Part shown: one piece after another, positions 673 to 16,273 of the stretch
Layout: every line of letters starts with the position of its first letter
How positions within the stretch are numbered: the first letter of the stretch is position 1
NCBI GenBank assembly: GCA_029932675.1
Contig: JAOZPP010000025.1
Span: 1-39,252 of the forward strand
Origin: a bacterium
Lineage (GTDB): Bacteria; SM23-81; DAOVCL01
Reading direction: 5' to 3'
DNA: 39,252 bases
The notes under the pieces: generated by a model
What the model saw: the letters and a program-made list of their open reading frames with translations, nothing else
Told to the model about the DNA's origin: nothing
The model's database searches: none
Translations under genes and position numbers: made by a program

Positions 673-1296
673 ATGGAAGGATTCACTAAAGTCTGTCATC
701 CCCTTGTTGACCACTCGTTAACCGTCTTAAGAGATAGGAAGACAAGCATAGTTGAGTTCCGGAGACATACTGCTGTCCTTTCCAAAATCCTTCTCTTAGA
801 GGCCACAAAAGGGTTAAAGGTGGTCAAGAAACCAATAGAAACCCCCTTAAGCCGCGCAGAAGGGAAGGAACTTATGGATAAAGTCGTTGTCGTACCCGTT
901 CTGCGCGCCGGCCTTGCCATGCTCTTTGCGGTGCAGGATCTGGTGGAGGAAGCGGCAGTAGGATTTGTTGGGATTCAACGAGATGAAGAGACTGCTGAGG
1001 CAAAGGAATACTACCGGAAGCTACCTCCTATCTCCGGCTCGGACAAGGTGATCGTTCTTGATCCTATGCTGGCAACGGGGGGGTCACTGGAGGGAACCTT
1101 GACCGCGCTGAAGGAAGAAGGGGCCCAGGATATTACCTTGGTTTGTATCGTGGCTGCACCGGAGGGGATAGAACGAATCAGGAAAAACCATCCGGAGGTT
1201 TCTCTCGTTACTGCGGCGATTGATGAAAAGTTAGACGCACGAAAGTTTATTGTCCCCGGATTAGGCGATTTTGGCGACCGTTATTTTGGAACCTAA
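673..1296 (+). CDS. upp: Uracil phosphoribosyltransferase
   Basis: Cytosolic pyrimidine-salvage enzyme that joins uracil to PRPP to give UMP and pyrophosphate. At 207 residues it has the usual family length. The PRPP-binding loop VLDPMLATGGS lies at residues 128-138, the conserved VPVLRAGL at 75-82, and the C-terminal uracil-binding stretch PGLGDFGDRYFGT ends the protein at 195-207 as in other Upp enzymes. The ATG is preceded by AAGGAG at 658-663. The gene stands alone: the next plus-strand gene begins about 490 bp downstream and has its own predicted promoter. No uracil permease is next to it. Identification is secure from the motifs. Confidence 0.95.
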   Translation: MEGFTKVCHPLVDHSLTVLRDRKTSIVEFRRHTAVLSKILLLEATKGLKVVKKPIETPLSRAEGKELMDKVVVVPVLRAGLAMLFAVQDLVEEAAVGFVGIQRDEETAEAKEYYRKLPPISGSDKVIVLDPMLATGGSLEGTLTALKEEGAQDITLVCIVAAPEGIERIRKNHPEVSLVTAAIDEKLDARKFIVPGLGDFGDRYFGT

Positions 1297-1733: not shown

Positions 1734-1788
1734 ATCACTGATCAAGGAAGTGGGAAAGTTCTCTAAGGAATCAAGGAGATTCACGGAG

Positions 1789-2742
1789 ATGAAGGTAAGT
1801 GGCTATAGGAAGAGACTCTCCCCCCTCTTCTATCTTCTACCTGCTCTGGTTATTATTATTGCCTTCAGGCTATTGCCCATCCTCTACTCTTTCTTCGTCA
1901 GTTTCTTCGAGTGGAAGTTAAAGAGGGGAGCATTCGTCGGCTTAGGACAATACAAAACCCTTCTCCACGACCCAATTTTCTGGAAATCCCTCCTCAATAC
2001 GGCATATTTTGTCTTAGGGACTGTGCCCACAAGTCTATTGCTCTCGCTCTTCTTTGCCGTCTTGCTTAATCAGAGGATAAGAGCAATGGGAGCTTACAGG
2101 ACAACCTTTTTCCTCCCCGTAATCACCTCTTTGGTAGCAGTCTCTATGGTCTGGAAGTGGATTTATCACCCCAGATTAGGGTTGGCCAATTTCCTCTTAG
2201 GCCTAATCGGAATAAAACCCTTGGGGTGGTTAAATGAACCCACAGGTATCTTTAAGCTCACCGCCAACAGTATCGGCCTCTCCATTCCCAATTGGCTGGG
2301 TGGTCCCAGTTTGGCTCTGGTAGCTATCATCATAATGAGCGTCTGGAAGGGGTTGGGTTACAATATCGTTCTCTTTTTGGCTGGCCTGCAGAACATCCCT
2401 AAGCAACTCTATGAGGCAGCCCGGATAGATGGGGCAGGGCCCTTCCGTTCCTTCAGGAGGATAACCTGGCCTCTACTTTCCCCAACGACATTTTATGTGC
2501 TCTTAATGACCACCATCGTCTCCTTTCAGGTCTTTACTCAGATCTACCTGATGACTGGCCCACCTGTAGGGGGGCCTCAGGGAACGACTAAGGTGATTGT
2601 CTATTACCTATTCGAGAAAGGGTTTGATGCTGGATTTGACAGGGGATATGCCAGTGCAATTGCCTTAGTGCTCTTTAGTATTATCCTCTCCCTTACCCTT
2701 TTGCAAAGGAAGTTAGTGGAAAGGAAAGTCCACTATGGATAG
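1789..2742 (+). CDS. Sugar ABC transporter permease, MalF/UgpA type
   Basis: Inner-membrane subunit of a carbohydrate-type ABC importer (binding-protein-dependent transport permease family). The protein is strongly hydrophobic with about six membrane segments. Near the C-terminal third it carries the EAA loop (EAARIDGAGPF, then WPLLSP) that docks on the ATPase. I place the start at the ATG at 1789, with AAGGAG at 1773-1778 ten bases upstream. An in-frame GTG at 1750 would add 13 charged residues and has its purine-rich box almost touching it. The stop overlaps the start of the next permease by 8 bp, indicating translational coupling. Substrate is not identifiable from sequence alone. Confidence 0.88.
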   Translation: MKVSGYRKRLSPLFYLLPALVIIIAFRLLPILYSFFVSFFEWKLKRGAFVGLGQYKTLLHDPIFWKSLLNTAYFVLGTVPTSLLLSLFFAVLLNQRIRAMGAYRTTFFLPVITSLVAVSMVWKWIYHPRLGLANFLLGLIGIKPLGWLNEPTGIFKLTANSIGLSIPNWLGGPSLALVAIIIMSVWKGLGYNIVLFLAGLQNIPKQLYEAARIDGAGPFRSFRRITWPLLSPTTFYVLLMTTIVSFQVFTQIYLMTGPPVGGPQGTTKVIVYYLFEKGFDAGFDRGYASAIALVLFSIILSLTLLQRKLVERKVHYG

Positions 2743-3559
2743 AGGCCAGTGGAGCAAAATTCCCATCCACCTTAGCTTGATCATCGGTGGAGTAGCTGCT
2801 ATTACACCCTTTCTCTGGATGGTTTCTACCTCCCTCAAACTCCCTCCAGAGGCCCTCAAATTCCCCCCCAGCCTCCTCCCCCATCTCCCCCAATGGGCAA
2901 ACTATCTGGAGGCATGGAGGGAGGCTCCATTTGCCAGGTATTTCCTGAATACCATATTCGTCTCTTCCTCGGTGGTCTGTTCTGTCCTCTTCACCTCTGC
3001 GCTTGCCGCCTTTGCCTTCTCCTGGCTGGAGTTCAAAGGAAGGGAGGCTCTTTTTGTGGGTTTCTTATCTATGATGATGGTCCCAATGGTCGTCTATCTC
3101 GTCCCTTCCTATATCATCCTTTACAAATTGAAGTGGTTGGATACCTATTGGGCTCTGATCATCCCTTGGGGGGCAAATGTCTTTAGTATCTTCCTTCTTC
3201 GACAGCATTTTAAGACCATCCCTCGGGATCTCTATGATGCGGCAATCATCGATGGCTGCAGCCCCTTCGGCTTCCTCTGGAGGGTTGTCCTCCCCCTCTC
3301 TAAGGCTGTCTTGGTCACCGTCGCTCTCTTCTCCCTTATTGGAAGCTGGAATAGTTTTATGTGGCCCCTGGTGGTTACTAATTCTGACAAGATGAGGGTC
3401 ATCCAAGTAGGATTAGCCAACTTCTCCCAGGAGTCAGGAACAAGGTGGACCCTCCTTATGGCTGCCTCCACCTTTTGTGTGGCTCCCCTCCTTCTGGTCT
3501 TCTTCTTTGCCCAAAAGAAGATAATCTCAAGCTTTGCCCGTTCTGGGCTAAAAGAATAG
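2735..3559 (+). CDS. Sugar ABC transporter permease, MalG/UgpE type
   Basis: Second inner-membrane subunit of the importer, 274 residues, the usual size for the MalG class. It has multiple hydrophobic segments and an EAA loop (DAAIIDGCSPF, then LPLSK) in the C-terminal half. It overlaps the upstream permease by 8 bp and is followed 9 bp later by the solute-binding protein, so the three genes form one operon. No ATP-binding subunit is encoded nearby. In many bacteria a shared MalK/MsmK-like ATPase from another locus serves such transporters, which I infer here. Confidence 0.88.
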   Translation: MDRGQWSKIPIHLSLIIGGVAAITPFLWMVSTSLKLPPEALKFPPSLLPHLPQWANYLEAWREAPFARYFLNTIFVSSSVVCSVLFTSALAAFAFSWLEFKGREALFVGFLSMMMVPMVVYLVPSYIILYKLKWLDTYWALIIPWGANVFSIFLLRQHFKTIPRDLYDAAIIDGCSPFGFLWRVVLPLSKAVLVTVALFSLIGSWNSFMWPLVVTNSDKMRVIQVGLANFSQESGTRWTLLMAASTFCVAPLLLVFFFAQKKIISSFARSGLKE

Positions 3560-3568
3560 GAGGCATCA

Positions 3569-4861
3569 ATGCTTAAACGATTACCCTATCTTCTCATTCT
3601 CCTCACTGTCCTTTCCTTGATTGGCTGTGGAAAGCGGCAAGAGAAGGGGAAAACGGAGATTACCTTCTGGCATGCTATGGGTGGGCCTTTAGGGAAGACA
3701 CTTAACGGCTTGATAGAGAAGTTCAACCAAGCCAACCCCGATGTAAGGATAAAGGCGGTGAGCATGGGGACCTACACGGCCTTAAGCCAGAAGATAATGG
3801 CCTCTGTCTCCGCTGGAAATCCTCCAACCATTGCTCAAGTTTACGAAAACTGGACAATAGGTTTGATAGAGGGCGGTGCTTTGGTTCCTCTACAAGAGCT
3901 CATGGATGAAGATCCATCCTTCGGCCCAGAGGAGCTTGCAGACTTTTTCCCAGTCTTCTTGAAGGGAAATACCTACCAGGATACCCTATGGACATTCCCC
4001 TTCAACAAGGGACTTCCCGCTCTCTATTACAACAGGGAGATGTTTCGCGAGGCCGGCCTTGACCCTAATACCCCTCCCCGAACCTGGCTGGAGTTTCTGA
4101 ACTATGCCCAGAAGCTAACCAAAGATAAAGATGGGGATGGAACCCCCGATCAGTGGGGAACAGCCTTCTCCATACCCACCTGTATGGCCATCTTTCAATC
4201 AATGCTTCTGCAAAACGGTGGTCGGATCCTCGATCTTCGGAAAAGAGAGGCCCTCTTTGCCAGCCCCATAGGAATAGACGCCTTGGAGTTCTTAGTTGAC
4301 CTGGTAAAAAGGTATAAAGTGGCCTATATCACCTCTGGTGCCTATGAGCATCAGACAGACTTTGCCGCCGGTCGGGTGGCAATGATCCAAGGCCACATTG
4401 TTTCTCTTACTTATATGAAACCCCAACTTACGTTTAGCCCCGGGATAGCTCCCATCCCTCAGGGGAAGAAAAAGGCAGTGATGGTCACCGGAACCAATAT
4501 AGCTGTCTTCAAATCTTCAACCCCTGCTCAGAGGAAAGCGGCCTGGAAGTTCATCAAGTGGTTCACCGACACTCCACAGACAGCTCAATGGTCTAAGGGC
4601 ACAAACTACGTCCCGGTGCGCCGCTCAGCCCTTCAGACACCAGCCCTGGGGGAGAGATTCCAAGAAATCCCTGGTTTGAGGGAGACGATGATGCAGATAG
4701 AATATGCAGTTGGTCAACCCAAATGCGCTGCTTGGTTTGAGGGGAGAAGATATTTAGAGGAGGATGCCATCGAAGGAGCGATGAGAGGGTACGTGAGCGC
4801 AGAGAAGGGCCTAAAAAAAGCAGCCAAGAAGCTTAATCGAGAGTTGCAGAAGAAAAAGTAA
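3569..4861 (+). CDS. Extracellular solute-binding lipoprotein (family 1) of the ABC importer
   Basis: Captures the substrate outside the inner membrane and delivers it to the two permeases. The 430-residue protein begins with a lipoprotein signal peptide whose lipobox LIGC ends at Cys20. The mature part starts with TEITFWHAMGG, typical of the family-1 (maltose/multiple sugar) class. A calcium-loop-like segment DKDGDGTPDQWG lies near residue 190, a feature seen in a number of sugar-binding proteins. GGAGG just before the ATG serves as ribosome binding site. Sugar or glycerol-phosphate-like substrates are likely, but which one cannot be read from sequence. Confidence 0.9.
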   Translation: MLKRLPYLLILLTVLSLIGCGKRQEKGKTEITFWHAMGGPLGKTLNGLIEKFNQANPDVRIKAVSMGTYTALSQKIMASVSAGNPPTIAQVYENWTIGLIEGGALVPLQELMDEDPSFGPEELADFFPVFLKGNTYQDTLWTFPFNKGLPALYYNREMFREAGLDPNTPPRTWLEFLNYAQKLTKDKDGDGTPDQWGTAFSIPTCMAIFQSMLLQNGGRILDLRKREALFASPIGIDALEFLVDLVKRYKVAYITSGAYEHQTDFAAGRVAMIQGHIVSLTYMKPQLTFSPGIAPIPQGKKKAVMVTGTNIAVFKSSTPAQRKAAWKFIKWFTDTPQTAQWSKGTNYVPVRRSALQTPALGERFQEIPGLRETMMQIEYAVGQPKCAAWFEGRRYLEEDAIEGAMRGYVSAEKGLKKAAKKLNRELQKKK

Positions 4862-5030: not shown

Positions 5031-6488
5031 ATGAAAATTTGTACTTCTCTGGCTCTAATCCTTTTTACTTTCTTGGTTCCAGTGGGCAAGATATGGGGAG
5101 CTAATCCAGGGGATGTGATAATATCGGAAATCTATCCTGATCCACCGGGAAAATATGATGGAGCAGAATTTATCGAATTTTACAACACAACGGACAGCAC
5201 CATTGATCTAAGTGGCTGGCAAATTGCCGGAACGGAGTATGAAGGAACTTGTGGCGGGGAGGATTTCTGGGCATTCCCCCCGGGGACCGAAATTCAGGCT
5301 CACAGCTACTTGATTGTAGCCAAAGATGTAGATGACGATGGGTTCTCAGAGGAGTTTGGTTTCAACCCAGATTTCGAACTATATGACGAAAGCTTCTTCG
5401 CCGATAACGACAACCCCCAGGTGGCTAATATGATCCTCCTCACCCCCGATCCAGAGACCGGGTATAGCGATGAAATCGGCCTCATTCCCGGGAATGGATA
5501 TGGCGCCAGATGCGCCACCTACAATCAATATGATGCCCTCTACCTTTATGATGGAACAGGGGGAAACCATGGCAACCTAATCGACGCCATCGAGTATTGG
5601 GATTCATACAACTGCACCACCGAACCGTGTACCGATGTGCCCGGCCTTCCCTTTGATTACCTTCCACCAACAGGTATGGCCCTAAGCCGGGATGCACTAA
5701 ATACCGATATGGATAACTCCAGTATCGATTTCACCATCCGGGAACCTTCGCCCGGAGGCCCCCCCGCTCAAGGGGTGGGAGTGGCCACAATCGAGCCGAA
5801 GACGGTTGATTTCGCTACTTCCGGAATTGCCGAAAGGATAACCATCTATAGCGATAGTGTAGGAATAACTCTCACCCAAATAGAGGTTGAGATCCCCAAT
5901 GGATGGACCTGGCAAACTCCTGGGGAGATGGGAATTAACCTCTCCGGACCAGGATTCCCAGATACCACATTCTTTGATACCACACTCAGCGACTCTTCGA
6001 GGATCGTAATTGGGGGAGCATCGATTACGGACATCAATTATGGGAAGATAGAGATTTTAGACTTGACCTCGTCCAATTATCCTGGTTATTACAACTTTCA
6101 GGTAAGGACAGCTTATAACGAACACAAACTCACCCCTATAAAGTCCTCCCCAAAGGTATACGTTAAGGGCGTGACGAAAGCCGCTTTGTCTGTCCCCCCT
6201 CATCCCTTTGTTCCAGATTTAGGGGAAAGGCTCGAGGTCAAATTCTCCTCCCCTCCCGGGAATGATATGGTTCTTAAACTCTTTGATTTGGAAGGGAGGG
6301 TGGTGGTCACCTTGTTTGATGGTTTATCCTCGGGGGGAATGGAAACCATCCATTGGGATGGACGCAATGAGCTCTTCGAACAAGTACCCATCGGGGTATA
6401 TATCCTTTACCTTGAGGCCACAGATGCCAAGACAGGGGAGACCACCACGGCCAAGGCCCCAGTGGTGGTGGCTACGAGATTGGATTGA
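5031..6488 (+). CDS. Secreted lamin-tail-domain protein with FlgD-like C-terminal Ig domain
   Basis: Exported protein of 485 residues. A signal peptide covers about residues 1-24 (hydrophobic core, then GKIWGA). A lamin-tail domain follows, with the diagnostic start DVIISEIYPDP and the motif GAEFIEFYN...IDLSGWQI, at about 27-110 and probably extending to 230. The middle is beta-rich. The last roughly 90 residues resemble a FlgD-type Ig-like domain (KLFDLEGRVV, IHWDGRN, PIGVYILYLEA) found at the C-terminus of many secreted proteins in FCB-group bacteria. Lamin-tail domains often occur in secreted nucleases, phosphatases and surface proteins; no catalytic motif is visible here. The start has a strong GGGGAGGAAACT-ATG context. 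Confidence 0.78.
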   Translation: MKICTSLALILFTFLVPVGKIWGANPGDVIISEIYPDPPGKYDGAEFIEFYNTTDSTIDLSGWQIAGTEYEGTCGGEDFWAFPPGTEIQAHSYLIVAKDVDDDGFSEEFGFNPDFELYDESFFADNDNPQVANMILLTPDPETGYSDEIGLIPGNGYGARCATYNQYDALYLYDGTGGNHGNLIDAIEYWDSYNCTTEPCTDVPGLPFDYLPPTGMALSRDALNTDMDNSSIDFTIREPSPGGPPAQGVGVATIEPKTVDFATSGIAERITIYSDSVGITLTQIEVEIPNGWTWQTPGEMGINLSGPGFPDTTFFDTTLSDSSRIVIGGASITDINYGKIEILDLTSSNYPGYYNFQVRTAYNEHKLTPIKSSPKVYVKGVTKAALSVPPHPFVPDLGERLEVKFSSPPGNDMVLKLFDLEGRVVVTLFDGLSSGGMETIHWDGRNELFEQVPIGVYILYLEATDAKTGETTTAKAPVVVATRLD

Positions 6489-6508
6489 GGGTATAAAAAA
6501 TTATACCC
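6489..6508 (+). promoter_or_regulatory. Perfect 8-bp hairpin between two genes
   Basis: GGGTATAA (6489-6496) and TTATACCC (6501-6508) are exact complements around an AAAA loop. The stem begins at the base after the upstream stop codon and ends 8 bases before the next ATG. There is no T-run after it. It may act as a weak terminator, a processing site or a control on translation of the downstream gene, which lacks a good ribosome binding site. Confidence 0.45.
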
Positions 6509-6516
6509 TAATAGGG

Positions 6517-7128
6517 ATGAGAATTGAATTCCTTGTCTCAATCGTTGCCCTCCTGGCCATTTGTTCAAGTGAGGTAGAAGCGGCGCCAGCCAGAGAGGTA
6601 AACCTGGGATTAGGTAAGCAAGTAGCGATCTCTTATTTAGGTGGATTTGGAGGGGCAATGATGGGAGGAATGATGGGAGGTCTGACCTATTGGATAACAG
6701 CAACAGAGAAGCAAAAGAGGGAGGATAAACATAGTTGGTTCCCCTCATCGGTGGTCTATTTCTTTGCTGGAGTTGCACTGGGTTACCCCACAGGCAGTGC
6801 AACCCTATTACATCTAAACGACAGGAGTTCCTCATTCCCCTGGATGATGGCTGGAGCCCTAGGGACTGAGCTCGGTGTCACCGGATTTGTTGCCCTTGCT
6901 GCTCATTACGACCACCCTACCCTGGCTAAAGTCTCTTTGTGGGGTTATCTCCTCGTCCCTTTAGGCGGGGTGATAGCCTTCAACCGAACAAGGGGAAGGG
7001 CCTTAAGATACGGTGATGCTATCTTAGAGATTAGGAACGGTGGGTTAAACCTTTGTTTCCCTAAGATTATTGTTAAACCGAAAACCGTTCAACGCTTAGG
7101 CCTCGATTTGATCAGGTTGAAATTCTAA
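6517..7128 (+). CDS. Exported or membrane protein of unknown function
   Basis: I do not recognise this 203-residue protein. It starts with a probable signal peptide (MRIEFLVSIVALLAICSSEVEA) followed by a glycine- and methionine-rich hydrophobic stretch GGFGGAMMGGMMGG and two or three further hydrophobic segments (around FFAGVALGYPTGSATLL and YLLVPLGGVIAF). This suggests a small membrane protein in the envelope. An upstream in-frame start at 6262 would run through the preceding gene in another frame. The ATG at 6517, right before the signal peptide, is the only start that makes biological sense. The gene lies between two other envelope proteins. A short hairpin (TGGCTT-AG-AAGCCA) follows at 7148-7161. 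Confidence 0.65.
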   Translation: MRIEFLVSIVALLAICSSEVEAAPAREVNLGLGKQVAISYLGGFGGAMMGGMMGGLTYWITATEKQKREDKHSWFPSSVVYFFAGVALGYPTGSATLLHLNDRSSSFPWMMAGALGTELGVTGFVALAAHYDHPTLAKVSLWGYLLVPLGGVIAFNRTRGRALRYGDAILEIRNGGLNLCFPKIIVKPKTVQRLGLDLIRLKF

Positions 7129-7233
7129 GGTTATTTACAACTCCTGATGGCTTAGAAGCCAATTCTTGGACCTATTAACTATTGCCGCTGAGAGCTGGAT
7201 AAAAGCACAAACACTTAAAAAGGAGGCTTATAA

Positions 7234-8109
7234 TTGAAAAGGATGATCATTCTGGGGACAGTTGTTCTTACCCTGCTTTTCGCCGAGCAGGGATTGGCCA
7301 TCTTCCCTGATTTAGGGCCCAGCGCGCGCGCAAAGGCTATGGGGGGCTCATTTGTAGCCCTGGCAGATGATGGGTTTGCTATCCACTACAATCCTGCTGG
7401 TCTCTGTCAGGTAACCGATTATCAGTTCCACTCTTCTTACCAGAGGCCATTTGGCCTTAACTTCCTCTCCCATAGTTGGTTCGACCTGACTATTCCCATT
7501 GGTCGGTATGGGACCCTGGGGTTCTCCTTTCAAAAGCAGGGGGTGGAATATAGGGGAGTGGCTATGGAGGCGGAGAAAACTCTCCAATTCGGGCATGGCT
7601 TCAGGTTAATGGGAGATATCCACAGTTGGCTCTCCTTGGGATATACCCTTAACCTTTATTCCTTAGAGTTCGGAAAGTCTGTGGGGGGAGTGGAACTAGG
7701 CTCTGCCCACACCTTCGGCATAAATATCGGGGGTTTAGCAGGGCTATGGAGGAGGACAAGATTGGGGTTTCTGGCCCGCAACATCAACAATCCCCAGATG
7801 GGGAAGAATACCAAATTTGACCTCCCTCAAAGCATTGTTGTCGGGGTTTGCTACTCCCCCTACAAGGGAGTGGAGACCAACTGGGATGTGGTGAAAGAAC
7901 TAAACCAAGAGACCCAACTCCACTTTGGGGTGGAAAGCATGGTAACCAAATCCCTTATCCTCAGGGTTGGGCTTCAGAACAACCCTAACCTCTATACCTT
8001 GGGGATGGGCATCAACTACCAGGGCATCTCCTTCGATTATGGCTTCTCTTACAATTCCCAGCCAGGTTCTACCCATCAGTTGACCTTGGGTTACCGGATC
8101 GAGAGATAG
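7234..8109 (+). CDS. Outer-membrane beta-barrel protein, PorV/UPF0164 family
   Basis: Predicted outer-membrane barrel of 291 residues. After a signal peptide it carries the family hallmark ARAKAMGGSFVALADDGFAIHYNPAGL-type start near residues 30-58, with alternating polar/aromatic strands to the end and a C-terminal strand ending YRIER. PorV-like proteins include a type IX secretion component in Bacteroidota and other transport barrels; the exact role here is unknown. The start is a TTG at 7234, supported by AAAAAGGAGG at 7217-7226. It opens a compact run of four genes (gaps 9, 15 and 12 bp) with the helix-hairpin-helix barrel, a second barrel and a 5'-nucleotidase, so these products probably function together at the envelope. 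Confidence 0.78.
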   Translation: MKRMIILGTVVLTLLFAEQGLAIFPDLGPSARAKAMGGSFVALADDGFAIHYNPAGLCQVTDYQFHSSYQRPFGLNFLSHSWFDLTIPIGRYGTLGFSFQKQGVEYRGVAMEAEKTLQFGHGFRLMGDIHSWLSLGYTLNLYSLEFGKSVGGVELGSAHTFGINIGGLAGLWRRTRLGFLARNINNPQMGKNTKFDLPQSIVVGVCYSPYKGVETNWDVVKELNQETQLHFGVESMVTKSLILRVGLQNNPNLYTLGMGINYQGISFDYGFSYNSQPGSTHQLTLGYRIER

Positions 8110-8118
8110 GAGGGGCAG

Positions 8119-10632
8119 ATGGGAAATCTTATCAAGATATGGATCATAGTTTTCTTCTTCCTTTTGCCCCTTCCTCTTTTAGGGGAGGGATATACCCCGG
8201 AGAACCAACTGGATATAAACCACGCTACCCTTCTGGAGATAGAGAGGCTCCCCCTTAGCAAGCAGGATGCCCTTTCCATTTATAACTACATCTACTACCG
8301 TTCATATCTGAAGAGCATTTATGATTTGCGCAAATTGCCTCAGATCGACCAAGAGGAGTTTAACCGGATCAAACCCTTGATTAAGATAATCCCAGTAGAA
8401 GAAGGCAGCGAAGAATTACGCAGGAGAAATGCCATCTACTATCGCATCTCCCAATGGGCCTCAACCGAAGGGACAAATGAAGGCTTGGTTGATACTTGGA
8501 CAGATATCGCTCTCTCCCCATTGAATGTGAATACTGCCTCCCTCTATGATCTGATGAACTTACAGAACGTCTCCCCCGTGGATGCATTGGCTATCATCAA
8601 GCACCGTCAGAGGGCGGGAAGGATAGCCAGTCGCAGTGAGTTACGAAGGGTCCCCGGACTCTCCGGTTGGGGCTATTCCAACGCAAGGTATTTTCTAAGA
8701 TATACACCCAAGGAAAAAGGAAGGGAGATCCATGGCGACTATCAGGTGAGGCTCTACAATACCCCTTTGGATAATGACCTGATGGACATCTTCCATGAGG
8801 ATATCGTGGCAAAAAGCGGTGAACATGAGTCCTGGTACAACCGGCTAAAGCTATATCAGCAAAGACCTGCCTTCACCAACAAACTGAGGCTAAGGTGGGG
8901 AAACCACTTCAAACTTGGCCTACTTACCCATAGAAGCCAAGGCGAGAAGGAGGAGGCCAAAATTCAATACATAAAAGAGGGAGGGCCTACACTTGGTAAT
9001 AGGACAATCTTCAGCTTACGAATTCCCCCTACTTTAAAGTGGTATGTAAGTTTAGAGGGGTTAAAGTGGAGAGGATTTTCCCTCCAGAGGGTGGTTTTGG
9101 GCAACTATATGCTTGCCTTCGGCCAAGGTCTGGTAATGGAAAATACTGATTTCTTTAAACCCCGCAAGTCCGGTTTCTCCTGGGACAAAAGATATATCGG
9201 TGTCTTGGGTGACCTTTCTCGCACTGAAGAGTTCGCCCTGCGGGGGGTAGCTCTCCAAGGGTCCTGGCGGACCATAGATGGCATCTTCTTCTACTCCAAT
9301 GATCGAAAGGACGCCGTCCTTAACCCAGATGGAAGCGTCTACTCCTACATCATTATGACCCCAAAGATGGAGAATAAAGAAAGGGAGAGATACGGCCTCC
9401 TCCCGATGAGGGACGTCCTCAAGGAAACTACATACGGAGGACATCTGAGATACAGCCCGATCTTGGGGAGCCACATCGGCCTAAGTTATTATGAGAGCTT
9501 ATACAATCGTTGGTTTGACCCCCAAACAGCGACCGTTGTCTCCCGCACAGATAAGCTTACTACTACGGATAGTGAAATCTATAGCCTTTATAAAAGCCCC
9601 GGGAAGTTCCGCCGTTTCTATGGGGCAGACTTCCAGACCATCTATAAGAACTTCTCCCTGCAGGGGGAGTATGCGGTAATGGATACTGCTGGATCGCCCT
9701 TCAAGCGAAACCCTTGGGCCATCGTCCTCAGTGGTTACCTCCAATATGAAAACCTCAACCTACTGATCCTCTATCGTAACTACGGTCTTTCCTATGACAA
9801 CCCCTATTGCCGGGCTTTCTCCAACTACCCCAGGTTCAAGGGAACTATTCTTGAAGATGAATACTACCTTAAAGACCCTTGGTATGGAAACCTCTACGAC
9901 AACTCAGTCACCCCCCAGCCAGAAGAGGGGATCTATCTCTCCTCCCGCTATCGGATAGCCGAAAGGCTTATTCCCCAGATAGAGTTCGACAACTGGGTGC
10001 GCAAGGCAGATCGAGCTCACTACTCAAGGGTGGTAGCCAAGTTGGAGTACAGGCTTATCTATCCCTTGAGATTTAAGCTGAGACAGAAATGGCAGTCCCG
10101 CAACTGGTCCAATGGGCTCACCCCGACAAGTTTTGAAGAGGTCTCCACTCGTCTCCATTTAGATGCCCGCCTTTCTGGCTATGATGACCTGGACTTCATC
10201 TATGTTTCTGGGCACACCAAGTGGCCACCCCGTCCCCGACTGGTGAACAACCCGGAAGCGGACGGGGGACATCCGGTCTCCGGTCAGGCATCCCAACCTA
10301 CTGAGGCCCTCGGAGCCATGTTTACTCATAACTTCAACGAGAACCTAACCCTAAAGGCTTTTATAGGTATATATAATGGCTTCTTCTGGACATTTGAGGA
10401 CAACGAGTTCTTGGTGCTCGATGGACATTCGTATCGTTACTGGTTTTCCATCGCTGATAGGCTATCGCCCAACCTATCGGTGAGGTTCAAATACACTTTG
10501 GATCGCTCCCTACCCCGAAGCTATGTGGATGCGCGGACATATAAAAATGAGCCCTGGGAAAAAGATCCGGATGCTTGGAATGTGAGGGAGTTCACCCCCT
10601 CCTTCCGGCTGCAGATTGATTATAACTGGTAA
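8119..10632 (+). CDS. Exported helix-hairpin-helix domain protein with large beta-barrel-like C-terminal part
   Basis: This 837-residue protein starts with a signal peptide (residues 1-23) and then has ComEA-like helix-hairpin-helix units. One covers about 30-95 (LDINHATLLEIERLPL, then SIYDLRKLPQI). The second covers about 132-192 (LNVNTASLYDLMNLQNV, then SRSELRRVPGL). From about residue 200 to the end the sequence is rich in Tyr, Trp, Arg and alternating polar/hydrophobic strands, like an outer-membrane barrel. Helix-hairpin-helix motifs usually bind DNA non-specifically, as in the competence protein ComEA. In this exported setting they could bind extracellular or periplasmic DNA, but a protein-binding use is equally possible. 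It begins 9 bp after the PorV-like gene. Confidence 0.72.
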   Translation: MGNLIKIWIIVFFFLLPLPLLGEGYTPENQLDINHATLLEIERLPLSKQDALSIYNYIYYRSYLKSIYDLRKLPQIDQEEFNRIKPLIKIIPVEEGSEELRRRNAIYYRISQWASTEGTNEGLVDTWTDIALSPLNVNTASLYDLMNLQNVSPVDALAIIKHRQRAGRIASRSELRRVPGLSGWGYSNARYFLRYTPKEKGREIHGDYQVRLYNTPLDNDLMDIFHEDIVAKSGEHESWYNRLKLYQQRPAFTNKLRLRWGNHFKLGLLTHRSQGEKEEAKIQYIKEGGPTLGNRTIFSLRIPPTLKWYVSLEGLKWRGFSLQRVVLGNYMLAFGQGLVMENTDFFKPRKSGFSWDKRYIGVLGDLSRTEEFALRGVALQGSWRTIDGIFFYSNDRKDAVLNPDGSVYSYIIMTPKMENKERERYGLLPMRDVLKETTYGGHLRYSPILGSHIGLSYYESLYNRWFDPQTATVVSRTDKLTTTDSEIYSLYKSPGKFRRFYGADFQTIYKNFSLQGEYAVMDTAGSPFKRNPWAIVLSGYLQYENLNLLILYRNYGLSYDNPYCRAFSNYPRFKGTILEDEYYLKDPWYGNLYDNSVTPQPEEGIYLSSRYRIAERLIPQIEFDNWVRKADRAHYSRVVAKLEYRLIYPLRFKLRQKWQSRNWSNGLTPTSFEEVSTRLHLDARLSGYDDLDFIYVSGHTKWPPRPRLVNNPEADGGHPVSGQASQPTEALGAMFTHNFNENLTLKAFIGIYNGFFWTFEDNEFLVLDGHSYRYWFSIADRLSPNLSVRFKYTLDRSLPRSYVDARTYKNEPWEKDPDAWNVREFTPSFRLQIDYNW

Positions 10633-10647
10633 GTCATGGAGGCCAAG

Positions 10648-11901
10648 ATGAAAAAAAGATCCTTGCTTTTCTTGTCTGTATTTTCTCTACTTCTTCCCTT
10701 AGGCAGGACTATGGGTTACACCTTCTACGACACCTATTATGGGGAAAGGATTACCGCCCTAAATGCTCGGTCCTTATCTTTAGGACATACAGGAGTATTG
10801 AGTGAACCATTGGCCATAGGCCTAAATCCTGCGCTCTCCTCCGAGGTAAAGAACTTACGCTTAGCCACTTCCCTGAGGATTACTCAAGCATCCGAAGATA
10901 GGGCATTCCCTGTGCATGACAGCTTCGAGGGCTTTCTCACCTACAACACCTATGCGATGAACACCAACTACTACAATGACTTCTCCCTCGCAGTGGTTAA
11001 AGGGTCCACCCTCCCATACATCCCCACCATCGGCTTAGCTTGGTATCCATTTTCTAATTTCAGATATAAATATGGGGAGGAAATAAGGGGGCTGAAAGAC
11101 CCTAACAAGGACAAACTCTTAGCCCGGAATTTGATCAAGTCCTCTGGTGAAATAGACGCCCTTTCCTTTAGCCTTTCCCAGGGGGTTACTCCCTGGTTGG
11201 GAGTGGGAGTCTCCCTGAATATCCTGCGGGGAACGGCAAAGAAATCCAGGGAAACAGATTCTTTAAATACCCCTCAGACCGACCGAAGGGAGGTATGGAA
11301 GAATAGAGCCCTTAAGGGAAGCAACATCTCCTTAGGTCTCACCTATAAGGCCTCGGGCAGATTCAGGTTTGGCCTCTCCTACGGGTCAAAGCCGACCATC
11401 AAGGGTGACCATTACTATCAGGATTTTTTGGGGGATTCCCTTATAGCCGACACCACCCTTAGTTATAAACTTACCTACCCTTGGGAGGTTAACTTTGGGG
11501 TGGAATATAGGCCGAGGAGTATACTTCAAACCAGAATATACTTGGAGACGGCCTTCACCAGATGGTCTAAGCTGCGAACATCGCTACCAGACACCTCCCT
11601 CCCCAAATTGCGAGATGTCTGGGAGATAAAGGGAGGTGTTGAACACATCTTCTTCAACCAAATTCGGGCGAGGTTCGGATTCCTCTATCAGCCATCCCCC
11701 TTTGGCCAGGGCATGGCCAGATCGGCCTTCACCTTCGGTACAGGATTTAAGAGCAAGGGGATGGATATAGACTTTGGAGGGGAGGTGGGGAATAGGGAAT
11801 ATAGGCAGGAGGACCTCTTCCCGGAAAGTGTACCACCGAGAAAGGATCGAATAAAGGAATCCTTGATTAAATTTATAGTAACGATAAGCTATCAAACTTA
11901 G
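10648..11901 (+). CDS. Outer-membrane beta-barrel protein, PorV/FadL-like
   Basis: A second barrel-type outer-membrane protein of 417 residues. The signal peptide is KKRSLLFLSVFSLLLPLGRTMG. The mature start (NARSLSLGHTGVL, then GLNPALSS) repeats the pattern of the PorV/UPF0164 family, and the remainder is amphipathic strands. I use the ATG at 10648, five bases after GGAGG, rather than the ATG at 10636 that contains part of this ribosome binding site. Its stop codon is part of the ribosome binding site (TAGGAGG) of the following 5'-nucleotidase, indicating translational coupling. Function not identifiable beyond the fold. Confidence 0.7.
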   Translation: MKKRSLLFLSVFSLLLPLGRTMGYTFYDTYYGERITALNARSLSLGHTGVLSEPLAIGLNPALSSEVKNLRLATSLRITQASEDRAFPVHDSFEGFLTYNTYAMNTNYYNDFSLAVVKGSTLPYIPTIGLAWYPFSNFRYKYGEEIRGLKDPNKDKLLARNLIKSSGEIDALSFSLSQGVTPWLGVGVSLNILRGTAKKSRETDSLNTPQTDRREVWKNRALKGSNISLGLTYKASGRFRFGLSYGSKPTIKGDHYYQDFLGDSLIADTTLSYKLTYPWEVNFGVEYRPRSILQTRIYLETAFTRWSKLRTSLPDTSLPKLRDVWEIKGGVEHIFFNQIRARFGFLYQPSPFGQGMARSAFTFGTGFKSKGMDIDFGGEVGNREYRQEDLFPESVPPRKDRIKESLIKFIVTISYQT

Positions 11902-11913
11902 GAGGTATTTAAT

Positions 11914-13587
11914 TTGAAGCTACTACGATCTATCTATCTAACAACTGTTCTCTCCCTGCTGTGTATTCCTTCCCTTTGGGCCTTAGATGGACAAAGGATT
12001 GTGGTTATGCATACAAACGATGTCCATGGGGGCATTAATCCACAGAAGGCGACCTTTATGAGCCGCGAGTTTCCCCCTTCCTTGGGAGGAGGGGCCTCGC
12101 AGGCGACGATCATTCAGGCCGAAAGGGAGAAGGCCAAGGAAAATGGCTGGGGATTTTTGCTCATCGATGACGGGGACATCTTTCAAGGGACTCCCGTGGG
12201 GACAAAGACCAAAGGCAGGGCGGTAATCGAGTATATGAACAGGGTGGGCTATGACCTGCTCACCGTAGGGAATCATGACTTCGATAAAGGGGTGGATAAC
12301 CTCCGGGAATTAGCTGAAATGGCCAATTTTCCCTTCTTGGGAGCCAATGTCGTCAATGCAGAGACTGGGGAGATACTAAACTTCCTCAAACCATACCTCA
12401 TCAAGGAGGTGGGGGGAATAAAATTGGGGATAATTGGCCTCTGCACTACTGAGACCCAGCAGATGAGTTTTCCTGGGAATATAAAGGGAGTAAAGTTTCT
12501 CCCGGCAGCTCCAGTGATGGAAAAGTATATCAAGGAAGTAAAGGCTAAGGGGGCTGATCTTATCATCGGTTCGGTGCACTTAGGTATCCCTTGGGGGGTT
12601 AATGACGCCTACAAGAGGATGATAGAAAGGGAGAAAAAGGGAGAGAGAAGAACTTGGATGATCAATGCTATGGAACTTGCTCATCAAGTGCCAGGGATAG
12701 ATATCCTCTTCTGCGGACACATCCATGTGGGTTATCGCCAGCCCTGGGAGGAACCTTTTCACCACACCCTACTCTTCCAAACTTATGCCTATGGATCAAG
12801 CTTAGGGGAAGTTATCCTCATCGTGGATAGAAAGACGAAGACCTTGGCTGGATATGAACTAACCACTAAAGCAGGAGAACTCCTTACTCCCTTTTCCGAT
12901 GAGTTCTGGCCAGATCAAGATATCGCTCAGAGGATAAACGATGAGGTTGTCCGAGTAGAGAAAGGGATGAAGATTCCCATTGGCTACACAAAGGTGAACA
13001 TTACCCGGGGGGATGCCTCCAACAACCTAATGGGCTTTGTGGTGGTTGATGCGATGAGGGAAAGGATGGATGGAGACTTCGCCTTCATTAACTTGGGGGG
13101 AATAAGAAAGGAGATACCCGCCGGGCCCATAACCACCAAGGACATATTCGAGGTCCTTCCCTTTGGCAATCAAGCCGTAATCATCAAGATGGATGGCCGT
13201 TTTTTGAAGAAGATTATAGAAATCAGGGTGAGCGACGATCATCATGGCTTGATTACCTCTGGAGGGAAAATTGTATATAACCACAACCGACCGGATATGG
13301 ACCGTATAACCCACTTTGAGGTTGGCGGAAAAGTCCTGGACCCGGACAAGATATACAGAGTGGTGACCACCGACTTCATCGCCCAAGGGAACATCGGGTT
13401 GAACATCCTCACTACCGTGCCTCAGGATGATATCTACTACTCAGGGGTTCCGGTCAGGCTTATGGTAGTGGAGTATGTGAAAAATCACTCCCCCCTCTCC
13501 CCCGAGGTGGATGGAAGGTGGCTGAGGGATGATAGCTCTCAAATGGATGAAGAGCTAAGGAAGGCGTTTAAGAAAGAGGTATTCTAA
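11914..13587 (+). CDS. Periplasmic or secreted 5'-nucleotidase/UDP-sugar hydrolase family metallophosphatase
   Basis: Two-metal phosphohydrolase of the UshA/CpdB class that removes phosphate from nucleotides outside the cytoplasm. The 557-residue protein has a signal peptide (about 1-24). The catalytic domain carries the metal motifs HTNDVHGG (near 32-39), DDGDIFQG, GNHDFDKG and CGHIHVGY. The C-terminal 5'-nucleotidase domain includes NLGGIRKEI, then FEVLPFGN, which positions the nucleoside. The start is a TTG at 11914 behind GGAGG. It is the last gene of the barrel/helix-hairpin-helix operon. Nucleotide scavenging is the natural role, feeding salvage enzymes such as Upp. Confidence 0.88.
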   Translation: MKLLRSIYLTTVLSLLCIPSLWALDGQRIVVMHTNDVHGGINPQKATFMSREFPPSLGGGASQATIIQAEREKAKENGWGFLLIDDGDIFQGTPVGTKTKGRAVIEYMNRVGYDLLTVGNHDFDKGVDNLRELAEMANFPFLGANVVNAETGEILNFLKPYLIKEVGGIKLGIIGLCTTETQQMSFPGNIKGVKFLPAAPVMEKYIKEVKAKGADLIIGSVHLGIPWGVNDAYKRMIEREKKGERRTWMINAMELAHQVPGIDILFCGHIHVGYRQPWEEPFHHTLLFQTYAYGSSLGEVILIVDRKTKTLAGYELTTKAGELLTPFSDEFWPDQDIAQRINDEVVRVEKGMKIPIGYTKVNITRGDASNNLMGFVVVDAMRERMDGDFAFINLGGIRKEIPAGPITTKDIFEVLPFGNQAVIIKMDGRFLKKIIEIRVSDDHHGLITSGGKIVYNHNRPDMDRITHFEVGGKVLDPDKIYRVVTTDFIAQGNIGLNILTTVPQDDIYYSGVPVRLMVVEYVKNHSPLSPEVDGRWLRDDSSQMDEELRKAFKKEVF

Positions 13588-13732: not shown

Positions 13733-16273
13733 CTATTTGAGCAAAACCATCTTTTTGGTTTCTGTATAAGTCCTTACCCTGATATGATATAGATAAACGC
13801 CTGAGGCAAATGGACCACCATCCCATCTTACGCTCTTGTATCCAGAGGTTTGCCTTTCATCCACTAAGGTGGCGATCCGCTGACCCAAAAGGTTGTAAAT
13901 CTCCAGCTTAACCTGAGCACTTTGGGGAAGGAAATATCTGATCTCCGTAACCTGATTGAATGGATCAGGGTAGTTTTGCATTAGAAGAAAGGATTCTGGA
14001 TGGTCCAGGAACTCCTCAGTTCTTAGCCCAGCGGGGATGGTGGCTTGAGCTTCCTCGGAATATTCTCCCTCATTTCCAGCGCTATCTATTGCTGAAACCC
14101 GATAATAATAGGTTATCCCCGGCCCCACCTTCAGATCAATAAAAGCGGTATCATAGGAAAATCCCAGGGAATCATCAGAATTCGGCGTGAAACCACTGGT
14201 TGTATCGCGGTAGATTAGGTAATGGTCAACACCGATGTTGTCCGTCGCCGGTAACCAAGTAAGCATTACAGTAGTGTCAGTTGCCGAGGCTTCCAAGTTG
14301 GTCACCTTGGACGGTGGAGTTCCATCGCTAAGGGTAAAGGGACCATCGCTCACATCCTGTGGATCACCATCTACAGCATCGGAGACCCGCACCAGACAGT
14401 CCGTAGAGGGAGTGGCCGGCACAGTCCAGGAATAGCTCCCATCATTGGCCGTGGAGGCCACCACAGTCACCCAATCCGTGCCCCCATTGATGCTGTATTC
14501 CAGCTTCACCTCGGCTATGGAACCTGTCCATGTCCAGCTAATCAGATGGCTACTCCCCACCTCCCAGTCCTCCCCCCCATTCGGGGAGATAAGGGTAAGA
14601 GTTGGCTGAGTGATTGTAAAGGGACCATCGCTCACATCCTGTGGATCACCATCTACAGCATCGGAGACCCGCACCAGACAGTCCGTAGAGGGAGTGGCCG
14701 GCACAGTCCAGGAATAGCTCCCATCATTGGCCGTGGAGGCCACCACAGTCGCCCAATCCGTGCCCCCATTGGTGCTGTATTCCAACTTCACCTCGGCTAT
14801 GGAACCTGTCCATGTCCAGCTAATCAGATGACTACTCCCCACCTCCCAGTCCTCCCCCCCATTCGGGGAGATAAGGGTAAGGGTAGGTAATCCACTGCTG
14901 CGCACCCTGATAGCCACATCATTTGCTTGGTTTGCCCCCAGGTCATACCAGGAACCGCTGCTCCCGTTGCTGCTGATGTAGGTAATTCCTGTCTCATTCG
15001 GCCCTTGATCATCGGCGGCAATTGGGTATGTCCCACTGGAGTTGGTAAACTTCACTACCACATAGATATCGTTTCCCGCGGCAACCGAAAGGGGGGAGTC
15101 CAAGGGAATCGAATGATACCCGGCTTCATCGAAGCTGCTATTTAGCTTGCTGGACAACAGGCCGCTTAAGGTGGATCCATCGAAACTGTCATAAATATAG
15201 ACATCGATATCGGTTGTGGCATCTGTTGTCCAAAACTCAACCCGAGTGAGGTTGAACGCTGAGGAGGGGACAAATTTACAGAGCCCCCAGGCTGTTGTTG
15301 ATCCATAGCCCCAACTATTCGTCCAGCCTCCCTCGTCATAGTAGAGAACCTCCCCGTTCTGGTCATAGTTCTGCCAATCGGCCATATAAGAAGACCACAT
15401 CCCAATATTAGCAGAGCCATAGGCAATGGTAAAATAGCCCCTTTCCGTCCCATAACCACAGGTTCCCCCCCAGTTGGTCCCCCAACTATTCTTCACGATC
15501 CAGGCCCCCGTTCCTCCCGCATGGGAGAGGGTGTCATCCCATCCCACAATTAAAACCGCATGATTGGGGTCCCAGTCTCCGGTATAATAAAGCGTATATG
15601 AACCGTCATAGCTGGAAAATTCACTCCGCCAACTGGGGTCGTTGTCGTCACCAGCATAAAAAGTGGTGTAAACTGGTCCATAGGTGTAAATGTAGTCCTT
15701 TAATACATTCGTAGCCGGAACGCTATTCCCAGATATTATCCTCCAATCCAAGAGGGTCTTTATATGGGAACAAGCGGAATTACAACTGACATCACTGGGC
15801 ACGTAAGGGTCGCATGATTCCGATACGGTTCCTTCTTTCGAAAACCAACTGGCCATTTGGTAGTAGCTACCACCTCCGCAGCTTGTCCCATACCAGTTGC
15901 ATTCCTTGGCATTATTCTCTGAAAAGTCATAAGTTCCCTCGTCATCCATCAACATCTTGGACTCGATATTGGCTACCGAAGCGAATGCATAACAAGAACC
16001 ACAGTTCCCCTGGTTTTTGACTGAAGTAACCTTACCCTGTTTTCGCCAGTCCCACTGAGCAGGGGGTTGTAAACTTTTGAACCGTTTAGGCAGTTTCTTC
16101 CCTGTCAAATGGGAAAGATCCATTGGGGGAGGGAGAAAACCTGTAGCTGGAGGTAATTCCGTATGCTTTCTTGGCAATTTTGGAGCCTTCTGGGGTAGTT
16201 CGGCCTTCGTCGATGGGACTACTAAACAAATAGATAAACTGAGCACAACGGCCATAGTGATGTTCCCTCTCAT
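13733..16273 (-). CDS. Secreted papain-family (C1A) cysteine protease with Ig-like repeats and FlgD/type-IX-like tail
   Basis: Exported protease of 846 residues. Order of parts: signal peptide (1-24); proline-rich short propeptide; papain domain at about 72-290; a carbohydrate-binding-like beta region to about 465; two nearly identical 94-residue Ig-like repeats beginning LTLISPNGGEDWEVG; a fibronectin-III domain (TPPSKVTNLEASATDT...); and a C-terminal tail with NYPDPFNQVTEI and SGVYLYHIR. Catalytic residues are visible: Gln88 (oxyanion hole), Cys94 in GNCGSCYAFA, His238 in DPNHAVLIVGW and Asn262 in KNSWGTNWG. The tail resembles FlgD-like or type IX sorting domains, suggesting surface attachment or secretion. 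It is transcribed alone from its own promoter at 16369-16397. Confidence 0.9.
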   Translation of the reverse strand: MRGNITMAVVLSLSICLVVPSTKAELPQKAPKLPRKHTELPPATGFLPPPMDLSHLTGKKLPKRFKSLQPPAQWDWRKQGKVTSVKNQGNCGSCYAFASVANIESKMLMDDEGTYDFSENNAKECNWYGTSCGGGSYYQMASWFSKEGTVSESCDPYVPSDVSCNSACSHIKTLLDWRIISGNSVPATNVLKDYIYTYGPVYTTFYAGDDNDPSWRSEFSSYDGSYTLYYTGDWDPNHAVLIVGWDDTLSHAGGTGAWIVKNSWGTNWGGTCGYGTERGYFTIAYGSANIGMWSSYMADWQNYDQNGEVLYYDEGGWTNSWGYGSTTAWGLCKFVPSSAFNLTRVEFWTTDATTDIDVYIYDSFDGSTLSGLLSSKLNSSFDEAGYHSIPLDSPLSVAAGNDIYVVVKFTNSSGTYPIAADDQGPNETGITYISSNGSSGSWYDLGANQANDVAIRVRSSGLPTLTLISPNGGEDWEVGSSHLISWTWTGSIAEVKLEYSTNGGTDWATVVASTANDGSYSWTVPATPSTDCLVRVSDAVDGDPQDVSDGPFTITQPTLTLISPNGGEDWEVGSSHLISWTWTGSIAEVKLEYSINGGTDWVTVVASTANDGSYSWTVPATPSTDCLVRVSDAVDGDPQDVSDGPFTLSDGTPPSKVTNLEASATDTTVMLTWLPATDNIGVDHYLIYRDTTSGFTPNSDDSLGFSYDTAFIDLKVGPGITYYYRVSAIDSAGNEGEYSEEAQATIPAGLRTEEFLDHPESFLLMQNYPDPFNQVTEIRYFLPQSAQVKLEIYNLLGQRIATLVDERQTSGYKSVRWDGGPFASGVYLYHIRVRTYTETKKMVLLK
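14318..14881 (-). repeat. Tandem duplication of a 282-bp Ig-like domain unit
   Basis: Two directly adjacent 282-bp copies (14600-14881 and 14318-14599) inside the protease gene encode the LTLISPNGGEDW domain. By eye they differ at only a handful of positions, mostly silent or conservative, which indicates a recent duplication or ongoing gene conversion. Confidence 0.92.

Follow-up and report, generated by a model that had tools for sequence, protein, structure and literature searches.

In the nucleases ExeM and Xds, a lamin-tail domain (LTD) and an OB-fold make up the non-catalytic front half, and ExeM activity depends on the OB-type region and far less on the LTD (PMC6085458, PMC6746945). 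Transformation of Riemerella anatipestifer needs a DUF5689 surface protein and a helix-hairpin-helix (HhH) protein (PMC8459023). Here we analyse an operon on contig C91 of a 3.03-Mb bacterial genome (G000); the whole contig, 39,252 bases in length, is hereafter referred to as the window. The operon encodes an LTD protein, a PorV-like outer-membrane barrel, a fusion of HhH units to a predicted 24-strand barrel that we call HHB, a second barrel of the FadL/BamG fold, and a secreted metallophosphoesterase of the 5'-nucleotidase type (NT5). We tentatively read it as an ancient outer-membrane module by which FCB-group bacteria bearing a type IX secretion system (T9SS) acquire nucleic acid or its fragments, and place this reading just short of an even chance; put more broadly, the operon may handle extracellular DNA or nucleotides.

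A first-pass annotation of this DNA had proposed an operon that captures and degrades extracellular nucleic acid. The open reading frames (ORFs) it named were found as described, with PorV-like, HhH-plus-barrel, second-barrel and 5'-nucleotidase genes in succession and the LTD gene ahead of them (Pfam LTD 1.4e-17). They are closely packed, with gaps of 9, 3 and 12 bp from the PorV-like gene to NT5 (the second gap becomes 15 bp with the second ATG of the FadL-like gene), and the whole cluster from LTD to NT5 (5031-13587) lies on one strand (Table 1).

That reading also presupposed a conserved operon, and conservation was found. We surveyed 81 HHB loci (80 from named genomes plus the window, which is counted in each tally), which are interdependent in that some metagenome-assembled genomes (MAGs) are near copies and some records seem mislabelled; per-gene tallies were restricted to loci with room to look. 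The order LTD, PorV, HHB, FadL-like, NT5 recurs across many phyla, with a PorV-like gene (57/64 loci) and an LTD gene (51/60) upstream of HHB and a FadL-like gene (64/72) and NT5 (46/56) downstream. All five families occur together at 38 of the 81 loci, NT5, FadL and HHB occur without PorV at 14 (some cut by contig ends), and LTD, PorV and HHB occur without the FadL-like gene at 7. PorV and HHB genes overlap by 4 bp in 23/60 pairs, and when HHB neighbours were clustered without bias, these families again came out most frequent. The records surveyed carry the labels Zixibacteria, Eisenbacteria, Krumholzibacteria, Cloacimonadota, Gemmatimonadota, KSB1, Calditrichota, Latescibacterota, Edwardsbacteria and WOR-3. 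The operon is no chance arrangement, as its order is repeated from phylum to phylum.

Sequences in an HHB tree grouped mostly by phylum (13 label changes against a minimum of 11 and a shuffled mean of 27.7), and because the tree mostly follows phyla we regard the module as old. The window HHB adjoins that of a Candidatus Zixiibacteriota MAG, to which it is 83% identical. Nearly identical HHB genes were also filed under Gemmatimonas, Fibrobacter and Latescibacterota labels, and records labelled Armatimonadota and Puniceispirillum fell within other groups; this set (L056, L057, L058, L084, L109) probably represents mislabelled or mixed MAGs. Family statistics below come from an HHB alignment of 70 rows (A3; 11/81 dropped as over-long or cut ORFs), an LTD partner alignment of 51 rows (A4; 2/53 dropped), and chosen subsets of 44 (A5), 30 (A6) and 30 (A7) rows.

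HHB has a single Pfam match above cut-off, HHH_3 (2.7e-15, over two stretches), and its only NCBIfam matches are weak ones to ComEA (comE 9.7e-9) and GspK. An AlphaFold2 model from the 70-row alignment (mean pLDDT 85.1, pTM 0.80) has HhH helices up to residue 192 followed by 24 strands of at least nine residues each, bearing out the barrel and HhH units that had been supposed for this protein. The protein ends in F or W in 67 of 70 relatives. Exported, even-stranded and aromatic at its terminus, HHB is thus predicted to be an outer-membrane beta-barrel.

Using VIA-align, the longest good fits to the HHB barrel were the 24-strand ushers FimD and PapC (362-386 residues, 4.1-5.3 A); smaller porins reached similar or higher Z over shorter alignments. 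Foldseek returned many barrels at low TM (about 0.3) and, because these scores are low, we describe HHB as a predicted large barrel and claim no close fold relative for it. The ushers share its barrel size, but no sequence kinship with them was shown and no usher domains were found in HHB. A TonB-dependent receptor was rejected by sequence, as Plug and TonB_dep_Rec gave no Pfam match up to E 1 and the fold likeness was weak (TM about 0.3). The SprA models of Pfam and NCBIfam did not recognise HHB, and a PDB sequence search with an alignment of long and short forms (A2) returned HhH proteins only (EEPD1 9yi2 4.7e-17, and ComEA), with nothing matching the barrel. The barrel has no curated family in Pfam or NCBIfam.

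A domain ahead of the first strand in an even-stranded outer-membrane barrel lies in the periplasm or the lumen. Because the HhH units are N-terminal to the 24-strand barrel in our model, the DNA binding at the surface that the first-pass annotation had assigned to them is unlikely; surface exposure was rejected on the topology of the predicted barrel, and the units should face the periplasm. HHB shares with ComEA (TIGR01259, PF12836) an exported tandem HhH fold, presumably on the same periplasmic side. Unlike ComEA, its HhH region is fused to a 24-strand barrel, lacks GhG hairpins and is mostly acidic, and HHB falls below the cut-off of the curated ComEA family (comE 35.3 bits against 152.35).

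Among the 51 LTD partners, we found LTD in 33, an OB-fold (PF01336) in 22, FlgD_ig in 22, CBM_56 in 9 and DUF5689 in 8. Like ExeM and Xds, an exported protein here combines LTD and OB-fold; unlike them, it carries no EEP nuclease domain and has a FlgD_ig C-terminus in its place (EEP had no match in the window LTD protein and was not among the ten families listed for the 51 partners). The R. anatipestifer set (RA0C_RS04915/04920/02645), compared by description, likewise comprises a DUF5689 surface protein, an outer-membrane barrel, an HhH protein and ComEC, but its HhH (residues 236-301) and barrel are on separate proteins.

The PorV-like protein matches the PorV/PorQ family of the T9SS below its cut-off (NF033709, 76.7 bits against 90), and SprA_N was found in 49/52 HHB-carrier genomes, that of the window included. 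Unlike PorV and PorQ, it is tied to HHB and not to a recognised T9SS gene. The 421-residue protein was modelled with a FadL/BamG fold (pLDDT 88.9) and matched FadL (6e-16) and a chain of the F. johnsoniae BAM complex (9n2d_B; TM 0.69/0.74) by Foldseek. The BamG profile matches 32/44 of its relatives, and the protein itself lies below the BamG cut-off (58.1 bits against 250); it shares the FadL/BamG fold and is encoded in the HHB operon. NT5 shares with UshA/CD73-type 5'-nucleotidases both domains (5_nucleotid_C 1.8e-31 and Metallophos 2e-10, each over the Pfam cut-off) and the metal ligands; its score for the UshA equivalog is low (186 bits against 600). At what we take to be the ligand positions of the family, D36, D88, N120, H121, H222 and H269 are present in 30/30 rows and H38 and H271 in 29/30.

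We also recovered a shorter form of HHB, about 650-700 aa long and with one HhH. Alignment of the short form with the long by hhalign gave E 9.7e-48 (586 columns), 9.5e-93 (650) and 2.4e-21 (613), and judged by these profiles they are one family, alignable over barrel and HhH. Short HHB was found in 147/198 sampled Bacteroidota-phylum genomes, so the fusion that had been called unusual is widespread: the HHB barrel occurs in about three quarters of this phylum's sampled genomes, and the five-gene envelope operon is kept across many phyla. The window's own genome has a second PorV-like gene paired with a short HHB (C104, L162:6233-9245), with LTD, FadL-like and NT5 genes not beside it.

One Bacteroidota order carries short HHB in 83 of 121 genomes and, once two of the 83 with weak partial matches are excluded, comEC is the next gene after it on the same strand in all carriers (81/81). 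In most of these loci the Competence domain begins about 720 bp beyond the point where the HHB match ends, and the ORF after HHB overlaps it by 7-53 bp in 9/12 comEC-type loci examined. NCBIfam confirmed this ORF as ComEC in one locus (G109; 2.6e-35), whose phylum was taken as Bacteroidota on at least 35 SusC-type matches in each of five members tested. G255, from another family, has the order LTD-PorV-HHB-FadL-FAH-ComEC. In 26/40 loci of other Bacteroidota families a PorV-like gene lies upstream of short HHB, mostly touching it. The window locus has HHB without comEC linkage. Separately, in two genomes (L172 and L173; G395 and G371) an in-frame TGA interrupts the short HHB that lies beside comEC.

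Because of the HhH fold, the OB-fold, DUF5689 and LTD partners, the 5'-nucleotidase with its intact metal site and the coupling to comEC in one order, we favour a nucleic-acid theme. Around the computed core (a conserved operon, HhH units with a 24-strand barrel, a FadL fold and the NT5 metal site) we propose that the LTD/OB/FlgD_ig protein would reach the surface by type IX export, partnered by the PorV-like protein, and could there capture DNA or RNA. HHB would be the conduit across the outer membrane, and its HhH units, in the periplasm below the pore, may receive or dock the incoming material much as ComEA does. Nucleotides would be dephosphorylated by NT5, after which nucleosides and phosphate could be taken up. 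The coupling of short HHB to comEC in the one order would fit DNA passing on to the inner-membrane channel.

A more specific proposal, which we consider rather doubtful, is that HHB is the outer-membrane DNA-uptake conduit of the FCB group, uniting in one protein an usher-sized pore and a ComEA-like domain that receives DNA in the periplasm. The PorV-like protein would gate it, the LTD/OB surface protein would feed it, and the DNA would go on either to ComEC or into NT5-dependent salvage. If true, HHB would fill the role of PilQ and type IV pili in other Gram-negative bacteria. The HHB-comEC pairs of the one Bacteroidota order make the crossing of the outer membrane by DNA in transformable Bacteroidota addressable by gene deletion. 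Among open-licence papers we found no description of the five-gene operon or of the HHB barrel family, and none that links HhH to either PorV or the type IX pathway.

Several observations weigh against acquisition of nucleic acid. GhG is, we assume, the ComEA motif that contacts the DNA backbone. Across the 70 HHB rows, hairpins 1a and 2a lack it, being of L-P-I-S and Q-N-V-S-P types (position 45 is P in 66/70 and 46 is I, V or L; 150-153 are mostly N-V-S-P), and 1b and 2b retain the first Gly at most; the window genome's own ComEA-like protein has GIG in both hairpins. The net charge of residues 32-200 has a median of -8 (range -13 to +3; window +3). From these alignments, the HhH of HHB appears to be a DNA-binder fold with its usual contact motif altered in a conserved manner, and it may dock a protein instead of DNA. 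NT5 mostly has GN[S/A]G where the solved 5'-nucleotidases 3ivd, 2z1a and 1hp1 have GGDG, position 494 is D in 0/30 rows, and the Asp of that loop is presumably ribose-binding. The window LTD protein has no OB-fold match, with LTD alone at E 1e-3. No nuclease was found in the operon by a Pfam scan of the window or in the LTD-partner family survey. PorV and LTD are mostly absent beside HHB at Cloacimonadota loci, and several KSB1/Calditrichota-type loci are without FadL-like and NT5 genes. The 81/81 adjacency to comEC stems from a single lineage, and ComEC was near HHB in 0/40 loci of other Bacteroidota families. A general HHB-comEC linkage was rejected outside that order and G255, on these loci and, among the matches listed, on a 290-genome set. 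ComEC is present in 48/52 HHB-carrier genomes (on contig C60 in that of the window) and in 270/290 sampled genomes anyway, and for this reason its presence was rejected as discriminating evidence. Finally, CBM_56 in 9/51 LTD partners and the ABC transporter genes near HHB (11-12/81 loci) could point to carbohydrate.

The initial claim of a nucleic-acid operon holds in part. The barrel with its HhH units and the conservation stood, and the OB-fold/DUF5689 partners, NT5 and comEC in one order speak for it; surface HhH and unusualness of the fusion were not supported, nor was degradation, since no nuclease is in the operon. Its use of upp as evidence also failed, since upp lies near the operon at 1/81 loci only, the window itself, and was rejected as part of the system.

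The same data can be read as a T9SS-linked module for secretion or surface anchoring. The PorV-like protein would then act as shuttle or plug, HHB as an outer-membrane barrel devoted to the LTD/FlgD_ig protein and related proteins, and HhH as a domain for protein-protein contact, with NT5 as cargo or neighbour. We judge this unlikely. The PorV-like gene is nevertheless the most general neighbour of HHB in long-form and Bacteroidota short-form loci alike, FlgD_ig occurs in 22 of the LTD partners, the hairpins are unlike those of DNA binders, and there is the weak HhH likeness to the pseudopilin GspK. Of 290 sampled genomes, long HHB was present in 31 with SprA and 2 without, the rest dividing into 48 with and 209 without; these genomes are related and a Fisher test ignores relatedness, so the comparison is descriptive and its p-value is not to be taken at face value. 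Secretion is harder to reconcile with G109, a member of the Bacteroidota order with HHB beside comEC, which retains HHB though no SprA match was found there, with NT5 and the OB-folds, which have no obvious secretion role, and with the failure of any model to recognise HHB as SprA. The type IX theme is compatible with nucleic-acid acquisition, since a type IX-delivered surface protein could serve a nucleic-acid conduit.

Scavenging of nucleotides or small phosphate esters, by a periplasmic NT5 with the FadL-like protein and HHB as entry pores and no polymeric DNA involved, seems improbable to us. It would suit the conserved NT5 metal ligands and the 14/81 loci at which an HHB-FadL-NT5 core stands with PorV and LTD unseen, but a 24-strand barrel is much larger than it requires, the HhH, the OB-fold and the comEC link go unexplained, and NT5 is absent from 10/56 loci with room. 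Carbohydrate uptake, with an LTD/CBM surface protein, a large pore and the neighbouring sugar-like ABC transporter, is very improbable: the CBM_56 matches and the transporter genes would fit, but the transporter occurs at a minority of loci, NT5 and OB-folds are left unexplained, and no glycoside hydrolase was seen among the recurring neighbour clusters, which were not Pfam-scanned.

Table 1. Positions of the operon genes, the parts of HHB and the flanking genes in the window.
Feature	Positions	Strand	Remarks
upp	673-1296	+	
ABC transporter, three genes (two permeases and a solute-binding protein)	1750-4861	+	between upp and the operon
LTD protein, 485 aa	5031-6488	+	signal peptide; LTD at 25-189; C-terminal domain weakly resembling FlgD_ig; putative surface partner
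Small exported/membrane-like protein, about 203 aa	about 6517-7128	+	between LTD and PorV-like genes
PorV/PorQ-like outer-membrane barrel, 291 aa	7234-8109	+	NF033709 2.4e-21
HHB, HhH domain plus predicted 24-strand outer-membrane barrel, 837 aa	8119-10632	+	
HHB first HhH unit, about residues 31-91	8209-8391	+	
HHB second HhH unit, residues 135-194	8521-8700	+	Pfam HHH_3, 2.7e-15
HHB predicted 24-strand barrel, residues 204-836	8728-10626	+	AlphaFold2 model
FadL/BamG-fold barrel, 421 aa	10636-11901	+	profile match, model, Foldseek
NT5, secreted 5'-nucleotidase-type metallophosphoesterase, 557 aa	11914-13587	+	Pfam domains, metal ligands
Papain-type cysteine protease, Lectin_like and Por_Secre_tail	13733-16273	minus	downstream of the operon

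Two neighbours had been left out of the first-pass annotation. The small gene between LTD and PorV-like genes (ORF 6262-7128) gave no match in Pfam and NCBIfam scans and was present at the window alone (1/81 loci), being absent from the other loci surveyed. The ABC transporter between upp and the operon reads like a sugar-type system from its sequences. Downstream, the papain-type protease with its T9SS sorting tail is likely a T9SS cargo. Elsewhere, in the window's genome (C25, L029:8197-8592) and in G003 (L114:7573-7989), the gene directly after sprA encodes a ComEA-like protein that has GIG in its hairpins and a hydrophobic stretch at its N-terminus; HhH beside sprA was rejected as a general T9SS feature, as it was found at only 2/17 sprA loci. 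The window's genome also encodes two EEP-family proteins of 312 and 337 aa with lipoprotein-like N-termini (L166 and L167; C14 and C109), which are candidate envelope nucleases or phosphodiesterases.

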